Positions 30,092 to 50,220 of a DNA stretch of 64,000 bases are shown here, piece by piece (the first letter of the stretch is position 1; every line of letters starts with the position of its first letter). The DNA comes from Streptomyces oceani (GTDB lineage: Bacteria; Actinomycetota; Actinomycetes; Streptomycetales; Streptomycetaceae). The notes under the pieces were generated by a model. That model searched no databases and was not told where the DNA came from. It saw only the letters and a program-made list of their open reading frames with translations. The position numbers and the translations under genes were made by a program. The stretch spans positions 84,106-148,105 of the forward strand of contig NZ_LJGU01000148.1 of the NCBI RefSeq assembly GCF_001751245.1, given 5' to 3'.

Positions 30092-31024
30092 AACCGCTTC
30101 AGCGTCGCACCGCCCGACCCGCCGGCCCGCCAGCCCGTCACGTCGTCCCGTCACGTCGGCCGTACGCACGGTGCGACGGGACGGCATACGCGCGCCAGTG
30201 CGTTCGGTCGCACTCTCCGAGCGGCACGGCCTGTCACTCGCCGTCCATCACGGGCGCTGCGGCGCCCACGTCGCGCCGCAGCGCCCCCGGGCCAGCATCC
30301 AACCTGCTGCTCGCTGTTCGATTCACGCTGCCAGGAGACCAACACTCCACAGGAATGGCGTACTTCCCACGTCCACACCCTGAGGAGAACTGAGTTATCC
30401 CAACAGCCTCCACAGACAGCCCTCGCACGAAACCATAAAGCCAGGTCAGAGGCCTGGGGATTTGTGGGCGCGAGGACTCCACAAGCTGTGGACACGGGAG
30501 TCGCCAACAGGGCGCGGATGATGTTGTCCACCGCCCGCCCACAGCCCCTCGGAAGTTGTCCCCAGCTTCTCCACATGGTTGTCCACTGTTCGGCAACGCA
30601 ACGCGCCCGCTCACTGGACCGAGTGAATCAGCTCACACCGGGCCCTCCGTTTCCCTGTTGAGAAGTCGGCGAAACCTGTGGGCTTGGCTGTGGGAAAGTC
30701 AGCCGTCGCTGTGCACGGCCTGTGTACGCCGCCGTGCGATCCACAGCCACCCTGACTTGTCCACCACCGGGCCCACAGCCCGCGGTGGAAAAAACTGCCG
30801 CTCTGAGCAGGGAAAACGGAGTTATCCCCGGTTTCCACAAGCCCTACTACTACGACCACCTAGAGAGAGCCCGGGAATCCTCTTGAAGTGGGTGCTGTGC
30901 ACAACTTGGGACGGCCAGGACCCCTCCCCGAGGCGATGACTTGACTCTCCGGGCCCCGACTGTCTGCGGCGTACGTCAGACTGGACCCCGGCAAGACGCC
31001 AGCGACAGCAGGAGGCGGCTGAAG
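30092..31024. other. oriC: replication origin oriC
   Basis: A 933-base non-coding region between dnaA and dnaN, the standard Streptomyces origin position. I find seven boxes with one mismatch to TTGTCCACA: 30487-30495 (-), 30524-30532, 30556-30564, 30567-30575, 30579-30587, 30757-30765 (+) and 30896-30904 (-). Weaker ones lie at 30737-30745 and 30831-30839. Four plus-strand boxes are packed into 30524-30587. Short A-runs (GGTGGAAAAAAC near 30785; GGAAAACGGAG near 30811) are the most AT-rich spots. No perfect box is present. Confidence 0.95.
30524..30587 (+). promoter_or_regulatory. dense DnaA-box array in oriC
   Basis: Four same-strand boxes in 64 bases: TTGTCCACC (30524), TTGTCCCCA (30556), TTCTCCACA (30567) and TTGTCCACT (30579). 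The last three start 11 and 12 bases apart, about one helix turn, so DnaA protomers would line up on one face. Confidence 0.85.
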
Positions 31025-45206: not shown

Positions 45207-46079
45207 ATGGATCAACACCAGTCGGCGGTAGTGTGCTACCGGCATCCCGACCGGGAGACCGGCATCCGCTGCACGCGCTGTGAGCGGCCGATCTGCCCCG
45301 ACTGCATGATCACGGCATCCGTCGGTTTCCAGTGCCCGGAGTGCGTCCGGACCGGCTCCGGCACGGGCCATGCCCCACACGCGAACCAGCCCCGTACGCT
45401 CGCGGGAGCGCGTGTCGCCGCCGACCCCCGGCTGATCACGAAGATCCTGCTCGCGGCCAATCTCGCCCTGTTCGTCGCCGTGCAGGCTGTCGGCGACAAG
45501 CTCACCGCGGATCTGGTGATGCTCGGGCAGTGGCCCCACGACTCCTTCTACCAGCCGACCGAGGGGGTCGCCGAAGGCCAGTGGTATCGACTGCTGACCT
45601 CGGTGTTCCTGCACCAGGAGATCTGGCACATCGCGATGAACATGCTGGGTCTGTGGTTCCTCGGACCACCCCTGGAGTCCGCCCTGGGGCGGATCCGGTT
45701 CCTCGCGCTGTTCCTCCTGTCCGGGCTGGGCGGTAGTGCGTTGACATACATGATCGCCGACCCGGGACAGCCGTCGCTCGGCGCCTCCGGGGCGGTCTTC
45801 GGACTGTTCGGCGCGACTGCGGTGCTGATGCGGCGGATGCAGTACGACATGCGGCCGATCCTCGTGCTGCTGGCCGTCAACCTCGTCTTCACGTTCACCT
45901 GGTCGAACATCGCCTGGGAAGCGCACATCGGCGGTCTCGTCATCGGCGCCGCCATCGCGGCCGCGATGGTGCACGCACCGCGTGACAGACGTACGCTCGT
46001 GCAGTCTGCCGCCTGCGCCGGTGCCGTGCTCCTGATACTGGCCCTGTGCGTCATACGCACGCTGATGCTCTCCGGCTGA
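45207..46079 (+). CDS. rhomboid-family intramembrane serine protease with N-terminal zinc-finger
   Basis: Cleaves membrane helices within the bilayer. The first 45 residues form a B-box-like zinc finger with Cys/His pairs (CYRHPDRETGIRCTRCERP, ICPDC, QCPEC). Six or seven membrane helices follow, with the catalytic GASGAVFG serine (S194) and histidine H240 in EAHIGGLVIG, plus HIAMNMLGLWFLG. The ATG at 45207 follows GAAGGGAAG. Substrates are unknown. Confidence 0.92.
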   Translation: MDQHQSAVVCYRHPDRETGIRCTRCERPICPDCMITASVGFQCPECVRTGSGTGHAPHANQPRTLAGARVAADPRLITKILLAANLALFVAVQAVGDKLTADLVMLGQWPHDSFYQPTEGVAEGQWYRLLTSVFLHQEIWHIAMNMLGLWFLGPPLESALGRIRFLALFLLSGLGGSALTYMIADPGQPSLGASGAVFGLFGATAVLMRRMQYDMRPILVLLAVNLVFTFTWSNIAWEAHIGGLVIGAAIAAAMVHAPRDRRTLVQSAACAGAVLLILALCVIRTLMLSG

Positions 46080-46378
46080 ACCGCTGCCGTTGCGCGTACG
46101 GAAACCCTCGGACATCCGTCAGCCCGGACACGGAGCGCCGCACGGGAAGGCAGGGCTCGCGTCAGTTGTCCACAGGGTGATCGAGATAGTGTGCGACACA
46201 GCCCGAAGCCGGCCACGAGCCCCCTGAGGACTGCGTTTGTGCAGGAAGAACGGCAGGTGAAGGGGCCGCGCGGCGTTCGTACGAATCGCACTGGCGTCAA
46301 CGGGCGTTGAGTTATCCACAGATTTTGTGAGTTATCCAGGGCTGTGGATCGGGCTGTGGATAACTTCGAAGGGGCGTG
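46080..46378. promoter_or_regulatory. convergent intergenic region with a DnaA-box cluster
   Basis: Between the rhomboid gene (plus) and crgA (minus). Boxes: TTGTCCACA 46166-46174 (perfect Streptomyces form), TTATCCACA 46312-46320 (perfect E. coli form), TTATCCAGG 46332-46340, CGATCCACA 46343-46351 (-) and TTATCCACA 46355-46363 (-). The last and second boxes form an 11-base perfect inverted repeat (46310-46320 / 46355-46365). It is about 15 kb from oriC. Confidence 0.85.
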
Positions 46379-46636
46379 CTACTTCCACTGTGTGGAGACG
46401 ACGAAGCCGCCGGCGATGAAGCCGAAGCCCACCACGATGTTCCAGTTGCCGAACGCCTCGACCGGCAGCTCGCTCTTGGTGACGTAGAAGAGCACGATCC
46501 ACGCCAGCCCGATGCCGAAGAGCCCGAGCATCAGCGGCGCGACCCAGCGTCGACCACCGCCGCCCAGGTCCAGCTCCGTCTTCTTGGCGGGCGGGGGCGT
46601 GTAGTCGTCCTTCTTGCGGATGCGTGACTTCGGCAC
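46379..46636 (-). CDS. crgA: cell division protein CrgA
   Basis: An 85-residue septation regulator that affects FtsZ ring timing in Streptomyces and binds divisome proteins in mycobacteria. The sequence [16 protein letters not shown], then two membrane helices (about 33-52 and 62-80) and the end [14 protein letters not shown] are diagnostic. I chose the GTG at 46636, seven bases after AGGAGAG; the frame stays open upstream but lacks similarity. It is divergent from the DUF881 gene. Confidence 0.95.
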
Positions 46637-46742
46637 GAGGGGGCTCTCCTGTCGATGCGCTGCGTCACCGCGTGGGGTGAATCGTGGTTTCGGTGGTCCG
46701 ATAGCGTAGTGCGTACCCGGGGCGGAAGGAGACAAGGGTACG

Positions 46743-47888: not shown

Positions 47889-48517
47889 TGGGCGTGCGAA
47901 TCCTGGTCGTGGACAACTACGACAGTTTCGTCTTCAACCTCGTCCAGTACCTGTACCAACTCGGTGCTGAGTGCGAGGTCATGCGCAACGACGCGGTGCG
48001 GACCGAGCAGGCGGCGGAGGGCTACGCGGGCGTGCTGCTCTCCCCCGGCCCCGGGACTCCGGAACAGGCCGGTGTGTGCGTGGACATGGTGCGGCGATGT
48101 GCCGCCGATGGTGTGCCGGTGTTCGGCGTGTGCCTGGGCATGCAGTCGATCGCCGTCGCGTACGGCGCGGTGGTCGGCAGAGCCCCCGAACTGCTGCACG
48201 GCAAGACCTCAGCGATGCACCACGAGGGTGCGGGCGTCTTCGCTGGCCTGCCGTCGCCGTTCACCGCGACGCGCTATCACTCCCTCGGCGTGCGGCCGGA
48301 CACCGTGCCGAGCGCGCTGCGGGTCACGGCTCGTACTGACTCCGGGGTGCTGATGGGTCTACGGCACCGCGAACTTCCCGTCGAGGGAGTGCAGTTCCAC
48401 CCCGAGTCCGTACTCACCGAATGGGGCCACCGGATGCTGGCGAACTGGCTGGTGGAATGCGGTGACCAGAAGGCGGTTGACCGGTCCGCGGGCCTCGCAC
48501 CGGTCGTCGGCACGTGA
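47888..48517 (+). CDS. pabA: class I glutamine amidotransferase, PabA/TrpG type
   Basis: Supplies ammonia from glutamine to an aminodeoxychorismate or anthranilate synthase. The 209-residue product shows LVVDNYDSFVFNLVQYL, the oxyanion LLSPGPGTPEQAG, the nucleophile GVCLGMQSIAVAYG and the catalytic VQFHPESVLTE. No component I partner gene lies in the window, so folate or tryptophan function cannot be decided. The start overlaps the small membrane gene and the last four bases overlap the first sortase gene (GTGA). Confidence 0.92.
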   Translation: MGVRILVVDNYDSFVFNLVQYLYQLGAECEVMRNDAVRTEQAAEGYAGVLLSPGPGTPEQAGVCVDMVRRCAADGVPVFGVCLGMQSIAVAYGAVVGRAPELLHGKTSAMHHEGAGVFAGLPSPFTATRYHSLGVRPDTVPSALRVTARTDSGVLMGLRHRELPVEGVQFHPESVLTEWGHRMLANWLVECGDQKAVDRSAGLAPVVGT

Positions 48518-50220
48518 GTCGCGGGCCCTCGGCGTACGGTGACGACCAGGGCAGCCCGTACGGTGACCCGCACGGGGCCGATCCGTACGGGGAGGACCCG
48601 TACGGGGCGAGGGCTGACGCTGGTGCGGGGACGTACGCGCCCCGGCATGCCGCCGGAGGCACCGGTTCGGGCCGGCACGCGGCCCAGCCGCGGGGGCACG
48701 ATCCGGACGGGCACACGGCGGAGCACCGAGGCGACCCGTACGGCGCTGACCCGTACGGGTCGACATACGGTGCCGAGGAGCCCGCCGGTGACTACCGGAG
48801 CCCCGCGTCCACCGGGTGGCGACCCGGGACGTACGAGGCCGCGGTGGACGCGCTGAACGATCCGCTGACCGACCCGCTGCCCGGCCGGGGCCGGCGTCGT
48901 GCGCCCGCTCCCGGGCCCGTCCCGGAGGGTGCCGACGTCCCGGAGACGCAGGGATTCCCCGGACACACCTCACCCTGGTTCCGTACGTCGCAGGGAAGCA
49001 CGCACCCGAGCGACCCGCACGGTGCCGACCCGCACGGTGCCGACCCGCACGGTGCCGACCCGCAGGGCGCTGCCGCGCAGCCGGCCGCCCAGTGGCCACG
49101 GCAGCGAACCGGTGAGCCGGCTCCAGGACAGACCTCCGGTCAGCGGCCGGACTCCGCTGCGCAGCACGGCACTTGGCAGCCCGCGGCGACGACTCACGCG
49201 GTGTATCCGGTCACCACCGCGGCCGCTGCTCCGGCTTCCTCGGGGTCACACGGCACCGGCCTGGTCTCCGCGGAGGGTCAGGACTGGACACTGCCCTTGT
49301 CCACCGCGGACGTGACGGTGGCGGCCCCGGAGGCCGACGTGCGAGCGGCCCGGCAGCCGGACGGGGACGAGGAGCGCAGTACTGTCGGCCTGCGCCGGCC
49401 GGACGCCGCGGAGTTGGGGCGGGCGGCACGGCGTAAAGCCGCCGCGCGCAGGCAGCATCGCCCGGGGCAGAGCCGGCCCGTTTCCTCGACGGGCGCCGCC
49501 GGCACGCGCCTTGAGGCGCGCCGCGCCGCGCGGGCCGCCAAGGACGGCCCGGTGGTCGTGCTCAGCCGCTTCATCGGCGAGATGTTCATCACGCTGGGCG
49601 TGTTGATGCTGCTGTTCGTGGCGTACCAGTTGTGGTGGACGAACGTACTGGCGGATCAGCAGGCGGGTAAGGCCGCCAACGACCTGACCGACCGTTGGGA
49701 CAAGACCCCGGAGCGCAAGCCGGCCAACTTCACGCCGGGTGAGGGCTTCGCGATCATGCACATCCCCGCGTTGGACGTGAAGGTGCCGATCGCCCAAGGC
49801 GTCGACAAGGAGCAGGTGCTCGACAAGGGGCTGGTGGGGCACTACGACAAGTCCTCCGGACTGAAGACCGCGATGCCATGGGACGAGAGCGGGAACTTCG
49901 CCCTGGCCGGTCACCGGAACACGCATGGCGAGCCGTTCCGCTACATCAACAAGCTGGTGGGTGACGACAAGATCATCGTGGAGACCGCTGACACGTACTA
50001 CACCTACGAGGTGTCCAGTCGGCTGCCGTCGACCTCGCCGTCCAACACCAGCGTGATCGAACCGGTGCCCCCGCAGTCCGGTTTCGAGAAGCCGGGACGG
50101 TACGTCACGTTGACCACCTGCACTCCGGAGTTCACGTCCAAGTACCGTCTCATCGTCTGGGGCAAAATGGTGGACGAACGTCCACGCGCGGAGGGCAAGC
50201 CGGACGGGCTCGTGGACTGA
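48514..50220 (+). CDS. class E sortase with long repetitive N-terminus
   Basis: A cysteine transpeptidase that anchors proteins to the cell wall. Of 568 residues, 1-350 are a cytoplasmic low-complexity region rich in Asp, Pro, Tyr, Gly and His (DPYGADPYG, DPHGADPHGA repeats). One membrane segment (about 358-378, MFITLGVLMLLFVAYQLWW) leads to the sortase domain with H467 (LAGHRNTHG), C536 (TLTTCTPEF) and the catalytic arginine in KYRLIVWG. The TLTTC motif marks class E. Typical class E sortases are 200-350 residues, so the extension is remarkable. It overlaps pabA; the second sortase follows after 24 bases. Confidence 0.92.
   Translation: MSRGPSAYGDDQGSPYGDPHGADPYGEDPYGARADAGAGTYAPRHAAGGTGSGRHAAQPRGHDPDGHTAEHRGDPYGADPYGSTYGAEEPAGDYRSPASTGWRPGTYEAAVDALNDPLTDPLPGRGRRRAPAPGPVPEGADVPETQGFPGHTSPWFRTSQGSTHPSDPHGADPHGADPHGADPQGAAAQPAAQWPRQRTGEPAPGQTSGQRPDSAAQHGTWQPAATTHAVYPVTTAAAAPASSGSHGTGLVSAEGQDWTLPLSTADVTVAAPEADVRAARQPDGDEERSTVGLRRPDAAELGRAARRKAAARRQHRPGQSRPVSSTGAAGTRLEARRAARAAKDGPVVVLSRFIGEMFITLGVLMLLFVAYQLWWTNVLADQQAGKAANDLTDRWDKTPERKPANFTPGEGFAIMHIPALDVKVPIAQGVDKEQVLDKGLVGHYDKSSGLKTAMPWDESGNFALAGHRNTHGEPFRYINKLVGDDKIIVETADTYYTYEVSSRLPSTSPSNTSVIEPVPPQSGFEKPGRYVTLTTCTPEFTSKYRLIVWGKMVDERPRAEGKPDGLVD
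49012..49056 (+). repeat. 15-bp tandem repeat in the first sortase gene
   Basis: Three exact copies of GACCCGCACGGTGCC (49012, 49027, 49042), then a decayed fourth, encode DPHGA repeats in the cytoplasmic extension. Confidence 0.9.

Follow-up and report, generated by a model that had tools for sequence, protein, structure and literature searches.

Why would a chromosome carry better DnaA boxes beside its replication origin than inside it? The question is raised by a 64,000-nucleotide stretch of Streptomyces oceani DNA (hereafter the window, with positions counted from its first letter), in which the gap between a rhomboid-family protease gene and the cell-division gene crgA holds three perfect DnaA boxes, while the array at oriC holds seven boxes with one mismatch and no perfect one. 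An initial annotation, made from the letters alone, had pointed out both this lack of perfect boxes in oriC and a separation of 15 kb, which comes to about 15.3 kb. The answer favored here, with a probability of roughly 0.6, is that the boxes in the gap form a module close to oriC that would hold initiation back, with DnaA in a looped complex, and that would resemble the datA sink of Escherichia coli. This reading is built on the comparison of sequences: how strong and how unusual the boxes are, how widely they are conserved, how they are spaced, and what lies next to them.

A DnaA-box cluster closer to the consensus than oriC

The gap (46080-46378) contains perfect boxes starting at 46166(+), 46312(+) and 46355(-), called here D, C and A, as well as two weak ones at 46332 and 46343, called E and B (Table 1). 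The initial annotation had counted five boxes, among them one perfect TTGTCCACA and two perfect TTATCCACA; the perfect ones are indeed there, but the other two are weak, with two mismatches each. The inverted repeat that it described does exist and joins the 46312 and 46355 boxes, although its arms are 12 bases long and not 11, and Pfam matches on the flanking genes agree with its naming of a convergent rhomboid gene and crgA.

Could such a cluster arise by chance? The whole assembly (6.31 Mb) has 48 perfect boxes, against 12 for a reversed control pattern, and 12 of the 48 lie on the 186-kb contig that carries oriC. Nowhere else in the assembly do three of them fall within 200 bp, and simple arithmetic from 48 evenly spread boxes gives an expectation of about 5e-5 such triplets. 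The gap therefore holds a DnaA-box cluster outside oriC that is above chance.

The imbalance between cluster and origin extends to the genus. Among 30 Streptomyces oriC loci obtained from 61 genomes, 22 have no perfect box (one of them, L340, consists of only 89 bp of sequence), seven have one and a single locus has two; boxes with no more than one mismatch average 11 per locus. The corresponding count for 149 modules, taken within 450 bp, is three or four perfect boxes in 133, two in 13, one in one and none in two. The earlier statement that the boxes of the cluster are stronger than those of oriC thus holds genus-wide, in terms of consensus match and not of measured affinity.

Conservation in Streptomyces and its family

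CrgA is present in 149 of 150 Streptomyces genomes. The convergent pair of perfect boxes, searched as TTRTCCACA-N(18-48)-TGTGGAYAA, occurs in 147 of the 150, mostly as a single copy, and the reversed control gives 0 in every genome. Its position relative to crgA was judged on crgA loci fetched from 149 genomes, and in 146 of these the pair lies at most 1.5 kb 3′ of the gene. It is likewise found in 76 of 80 named loci (some of which share genomes with the genus set) and in 39 of 40 further loci of the family, 38 of them from other genera. It is missing from L020, L030, L032, L050, L061, L062, L236 and L255, and one-mismatch forward boxes are seen among these (L020, L030, L032). A comparison of the gap across Streptomyces, which the initial annotation had proposed, thus shows that the boxes are conserved, and the cluster keeps its position among relatives. 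Merging duplicates reduces the 269 family loci to 247 unique ones with the pair. One genome (G467) has three crgA copies (L290-L292), each with boxes A, B, C and D within 450 bp and at equal spacing.

Conservation also reaches beyond the boxes themselves. Details were read from 215 loci chosen for a perfect pair; since C, A and D are perfect there by selection, it is the flanks, E and the spacing that are informative. The flanks of C show G at -1 and +9 in 100% of loci, with A in 97%, T in 99% and C in 96%. Box E, which has the family consensus TTTTCCCC at +21 from C, is strongly conserved, as are the letters around C, and box B is perfect in some other species. Of the perfect D boxes in 187 loci, 83% have G and 17% have A as their third base, while 90% have a flanking G at -1 and 95% have one at +9.

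Helical phasing of boxes C and D

The start-to-start distance between C and D has several modes in a first set of loci (96 distances, of which 90 come from distinct loci); a later set (98 distances, 106 loci, none duplicating the first) is multimodal as well. When these are pooled over the 247 unique loci, 198 of 208 distances lie no more than a quarter turn from the main mode (mode 147.5, period 10.5 bp). The counts leave out the 39 loci without a perfect D and distances outside 60-260 bp (among them one of 267 bp); where a locus offered several D distances the first alone was used, and the control distance, from the crgA stop to C, was limited to values below 260. With each C-D value counted only once, a periodicity at 10.8 bp appears with p=4e-4, against p=0.51 for the control.

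A further test relied on path-disjoint pairs of loci, drawn from a tree of crgA and rhomboid coding DNA; these are short stretches, and disjoint pairs address relatedness only in part. In the 63 pairs that differ in C-D distance, the difference is 1-2 bp in 31, 3-7 bp in none, 8-13 bp in 23, 14 bp in one, 19-23 bp in five and 31-39 bp in three, whereas 104 control pairs fall into the bins 1-3, 4-7, 8-13, 14-18, 19-24 and at least 25 bp as 19, 10, 22, 10, 13 and 30. For differences of at least 3 bp, and with a period of 10.5 bp set by the analyst, two of 32 C-D pairs are out of phase, compared with 48 of 91 control pairs (Fisher p=1.7e-6). Alignments of nine pairs, taken from the closest of those that change by at least 8 bp, mostly show a single insertion or deletion of 9-12 bp (once 23 bp), located at different places.

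The simplest cause of this pattern would be selection keeping two proteins on one face of the helix. Contact by DNA looping is the usual reason for such same-face placement, and the C-D phasing suggests a protein-bridged loop. The distance from A to C likewise seems phased (p=0.016 on unique values, with two of 57 pairs 4-7 bp apart), but it is not pressed here because part of this phasing is the 12-bp register of A and B.

A second conserved site beside box C

Beyond C, in the orientation of crgA, the family loci carry a palindrome, TGACGCCGGTGTGA (TNAC-N6-GTNA), of which a full copy lies within 121 bp in 150 of the 247 unique loci. As many as 146 of these 150 occurrences start 12-13 bp beyond C, and the shuffled control yields one locus. 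Such a fixed neighbor of C is probably an extra regulatory input.

Which protein might read it? The nearest described motifs that we met are the half-sites of MtrA and the box of BldD. MtrA sites, known from S. venezuelae, S. coelicolor, C. glutamicum and M. tuberculosis, are direct repeats of (G/T)TnAC with an 11-bp period, and TnAC half-sites at this distance also occur in the second motif, in agreement with one description of MtrA sites (PMC6265350). The family form TTGAC..GTGAC fits this period, although the conserved motif reads better as a palindrome, a reading that fits more positions in a by-eye comparison. In S. venezuelae, MtrA binds oriC, dnaA and dnaN, and it is described as conserved in actinobacteria (PMC5487470). 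In the main text of four papers on MtrA in Streptomyces, crgA goes unnamed (term counts 0). As for BldD, its box TNAC(N)5GTNA has the same inverted half-sites (PMC4151990); the motif was not assigned to BldD, its N6 center being one base longer.

Table 1. Features of the rhomboid-crgA gap and of its surroundings in the window
Feature	Sequence	Position	Strand	Remarks
DnaA box D, perfect	TTGTCCACA	46166-46174	+	distant box, 146 bp from C start to start
C-D spacer		46175-46311		length differs among species mostly by whole helical turns
Candidate second-protein site TNAC-N6-GTNA	TGACGCCAGTGCGA	46286-46299	-	window copy, one mismatch; family form TGACGCCGGTGTGA
DnaA box C, perfect	TTATCCACA	46312-46320	+	family consensus GTTATCCACAGATC; window form GTTATCCACAGATT
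Weak box E, two mismatches	TTATCCAGG	46332-46340	+	+20 from C in the window
Weak box B, two mismatches	CGATCCACA	46343-46351	-	tandem with A at 12 bp
DnaA box A, perfect	TTATCCACA	46355-46363	-	convergent with C, 43 bp start to start
Inverted repeat, boxes C and A with flanks		46310-46365		12-base arms 46310-46321 and 46354-46365
Rhomboid-family membrane protease gene		45207-46079	+	PF01694, convergent neighbor
crgA cell-division gene		46379-46627	-	PF06781, convergent neighbor
oriC box array (comparison)		30369-30904		no perfect box, seven with one mismatch

Position relative to oriC and crgA

In the 51 genomes that have oriC and crgA on the same contig, the median distance between the two is 21.5 kb, and 49 of them fall at 17-41 kb; the exceptions are G006, with 114 kb, and G012, with 6.35 Mb. 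Two genomes (G002 and G021) have a crgA without nearby boxes. There, the module (A, C, D and the palindrome) adjoins rhomboid, about 19 kb from oriC and about 5 kb from crgA, and faces a gene resembling that at 48514-50220 of the window, which we take to be a sortase gene. The module can thus persist away from crgA. The proposal of the initial annotation that the locus joins DnaA level to crgA is not supported by this comparison, the boxes lying 3′ of the gene and being separated from it in these two genomes.

Boxes and palindromes outside Streptomycetaceae

How far does the association reach? Of 20 crgA loci from other families of the class, ten show a perfect box no farther than 200 bp 3′ of the gene, and 15 show at least two boxes with no more than one mismatch. 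Perfect boxes amount to 3.0 per kb in these 200 bp, against 0.07 per kb elsewhere in the loci; the average after shuffling is 0.015 loci. In family f4, a perfect box lies 3′ of crgA in 23 of 29 readable loci (5.2 against 0.17 per kb), from a set of 30 in which one locus without a readable frame (L301) was left out and two with an apparently wrong frame (L299, L325) were counted as misses.

A palindrome is found there as well. With a score of at least 11 of 14 as threshold (shuffled maxima 9 and 10), 15 of the 20 other-family loci and 21 of 27 f4 loci (L299 and L325 being dropped from this count) have AATNACAYNNRTGTNATT no farther than 220 bp 3′ of crgA; in the family of the window, 10 of 269 loci have it at the same strictness. 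Aligned on the palindrome, the 36 positive loci mostly show one compact element made of palindrome and boxes. The palindrome sits mostly on the crgA side of the boxes, whereas in Streptomyces it is on the other side of C; these compact elements may be homologous to the Streptomyces module or only assembled from similar parts. The strict convergent pattern, which needs a gap of at least 18 and so misses compact arrays outside the family, occurs in 50 of 246 genomes across the class, that is in 22 of 22 from the genus and in 28 of 224 outside it; among the outside matches listed, none of those compared by eye with crgA lies at that gene (G356 is about 84 kb away and G282 111 kb). Another form of the palindrome, AATCACATNNRTGTCATTC, is found in 11 of 41 f4 genomes (L359-L369), upstream of an apparent CofD-type gene in the five loci examined; L367 has a Pfam match to CofD on one side of it and a WhiB-family gene on the other.

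Comparison with known DnaA-box clusters

DnaA-box clusters near the oriC of S. coelicolor and Bacillus subtilis are reported to repress untimely initiation (PMC4585315, PMC5742627, PMC10950094). Those of B. subtilis (Okumura et al., 2012, as cited there) would resemble the module as Gram-positive clusters with a repressive effect. On the oriC contig, the top box scores outside oriC belong to a site between the genes for prephenate dehydratase and seryl-tRNA synthetase, to the crgA-rhomboid gap, and to a site upstream of a MATE gene. The prephenate dehydratase site (C99:25669-25964, L112:5669-5964), about 89 kb from oriC, has two perfect and three one-mismatch boxes, while the MATE site (C99:77495-77778, L114), just upstream of the MATE-family gene near rplI, has one perfect and three one-mismatch boxes. 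Two further perfect boxes stand back to back in apparent coding sequence (C99:67279-67301).

Has the locus been described before? Judged by cosmid names, the prephenate dehydratase site would be D78, the MATE site H24 and the crgA-rhomboid site H69. Smulczyk-Krawczyszyn et al., in 2006 (J Bacteriol 188:6184), are said to have described these three clusters in S. coelicolor and to have reported a higher ori/ter ratio and faster aerial growth after D78 was deleted. The module is probably the counterpart of the S. coelicolor H69 cluster, and the locus itself may be known already, its architecture perhaps not. Phasing, the second site and the wider spread go unmentioned in the accessible text of the open-access literature on such clusters, no search having been aimed at phasing. 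Within the same limits, an open-access search for crgA with DnaA boxes returned nothing relevant, and one for a chromatin immunoprecipitation sequencing study of DnaA in Streptomyces returned none by title.

The proposed brake would resemble datA of E. coli, likewise a non-coding DnaA-box cluster outside oriC, which lowers active DnaA and whose loss raises the frequency of initiation. datA forms a looped complex. In the module, the helical phasing of C and D suggests that distant boxes may be brought together. datA uses IHF, with a site between its DnaA boxes that is needed for the hydrolysis of DnaA-ATP, and has an unrelated gene context; the second motif of the module, TNAC-N6-GTNA, is a different one. 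We know of no phased two-part architecture in the B. subtilis clusters.

Weighing the explanations

An element that restrains initiation fits the module because it has good boxes, is present in one copy, mostly lies about 20 kb from oriC among the genomes tested and is widely conserved. To this extent the initial annotation, which had the locus titrating DnaA, pointed in the right direction; plain titration, however, leaves the whole-turn changes in C-D spacing unexplained, and these make a looped complex the more likely form.

Several observations weigh against a looped brake. Ten of the 208 C-D spacings miss the expected phase by over a quarter turn (88, 113, 123, 143, 154, 155 and four at 161). 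A perfect D is absent from 39 of the 247 unique family loci, three of which have a box of like orientation with one mismatch, so that not every locus would form the loop. Relatedness confounds the phasing test on pooled distances: since the control distance also gives p=2e-4, pooled values are not used as proof, and unique values and disjoint pairs are used instead. Short duplications may feed the 10-12 bp steps, given that spacer self-match is 0.29-0.31 at lags 9, 11 and 12, against 0.24-0.27 at other lags from 5 to 17, and that one of the nine aligned pairs resembles a local duplication by eye. In G012, crgA and a module without D are 6.35 Mb from oriC on a single 9.03-Mb contig, which may reflect a rearrangement or an assembly artefact. 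Finally, the S. coelicolor cluster with a published effect is reportedly D78 and not the one at this locus.

Might the sign of the effect be the reverse? An element of the DnaA-reactivating sequence (DARS) type, which has a core of three boxes in a defined order and whose complex promotes ADP-to-ATP exchange, would activate DnaA rather than restrain it. A small set of boxes in fixed arrangement, with a site for a second protein, is what such an element would have, and arrangement alone gives no sign of effect; we nevertheless consider it unlikely, since closeness to oriC is to be expected of a brake that is duplicated after initiation, and since the Streptomyces and Bacillus clusters are reported as repressive in the papers cited above. 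An auxiliary origin or a chromosome-organising site built on DnaA would account for convergent perfect boxes in DNA of lower GC content (0.53 at 46302-46378 against 0.68 over the window), but with oriC itself 15 kb away this appears highly improbable.

The analysis weakened only two of the rivals, those that turn to crgA and to transcription termination, and both now appear improbable. DnaA bound 3′ of crgA (or of rhomboid) could alter expression and tie septation to DnaA level, and the array does lie 3′ of crgA in most of the family loci examined and, outside the family, in a share of between about one half and four fifths, staying with crgA far from oriC in G012. Yet 45900-46700 contains no promoter-like site (sigma-70 consensus only), crgA has no boxes nearby in G002 and G021, where the module is beside rhomboid, and in S. 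indicus (L050) crgA has no box in 3 kb downstream, a module elsewhere in S. indicus not having been looked for; conserved gene order near oriC is a simpler reason for the association. A bidirectional terminator or a DnaA roadblock, with the C-A inverted repeat as its stem, would in turn serve convergent genes, which need termination. The repeat folds (46300-46378, -26.4 kcal/mol, z -2.09, with 7 of 200 shuffles equally good), and a published paper deals, by its title, with DnaA-box complexes in transcription termination. The arms, however, read as DnaA boxes in 215 of 215 loci (partly by construction, these being chosen for the perfect pair), and a box 147 bp off in helical phase is not needed by a terminator. 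Other Streptomycetaceae, moreover, have a separate GC-rich and terminator-like hairpin with varied arms in the C-D spacer (such as GCCCCCTGTC/GACAGGGGGC); its stem reaches at least 8 in 87 of 203 loci, compared with 12 of 203 after shuffling, and its arms take 40 different sequences. No hairpin is evident in the window's own spacer, where the longest perfect stem is 5 (L001), and RNAalifold found no structure on 132 C-D spacers, the hairpin being then tested sequence by sequence. Intrinsic terminators with a GC-rich stem and a T run, which the scan requires, number 0 in 45900-46700 and 0.4 on average in shuffles; Streptomyces terminators often do without the T run. A search for RNA families in the region gave a single chance-level match, far below threshold.

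A proposed mechanism and its meaning

How would the looped brake operate? DnaA would bind the perfect boxes of the convergent array (C-E facing B-A) as well as box D, about 14 helical turns away, and the two DnaA complexes, standing on the same face of the DNA, would touch and loop out the spacer. Situated some 15-40 kb from oriC, the module would double soon after initiation; once doubled, it would take up DnaA, or help inactivate it, so that oriC, with its poorer match to the consensus, would not refire. A second protein, at its site 12-13 bp from C, would probably add a regulatory input.

Little is known about the means by which actinobacteria, lacking the E. coli toolkit, limit initiation. 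The module is a defined, mostly single-copy element of which nature provides variants in spacing and cases of separation from crgA, and its second motif offers a way to a partner protein. A broader and only tentative view is that DnaA and a second conserved regulator, for which MtrA is the leading candidate, meet at an oriC-linked site 3′ of crgA in what may be an ancient composite element of Actinomycetes, looped in Streptomycetaceae by helical phasing. If this is true, the composite element would be the actinobacterial counterpart of datA, and its second input could tie initiation to cell division.
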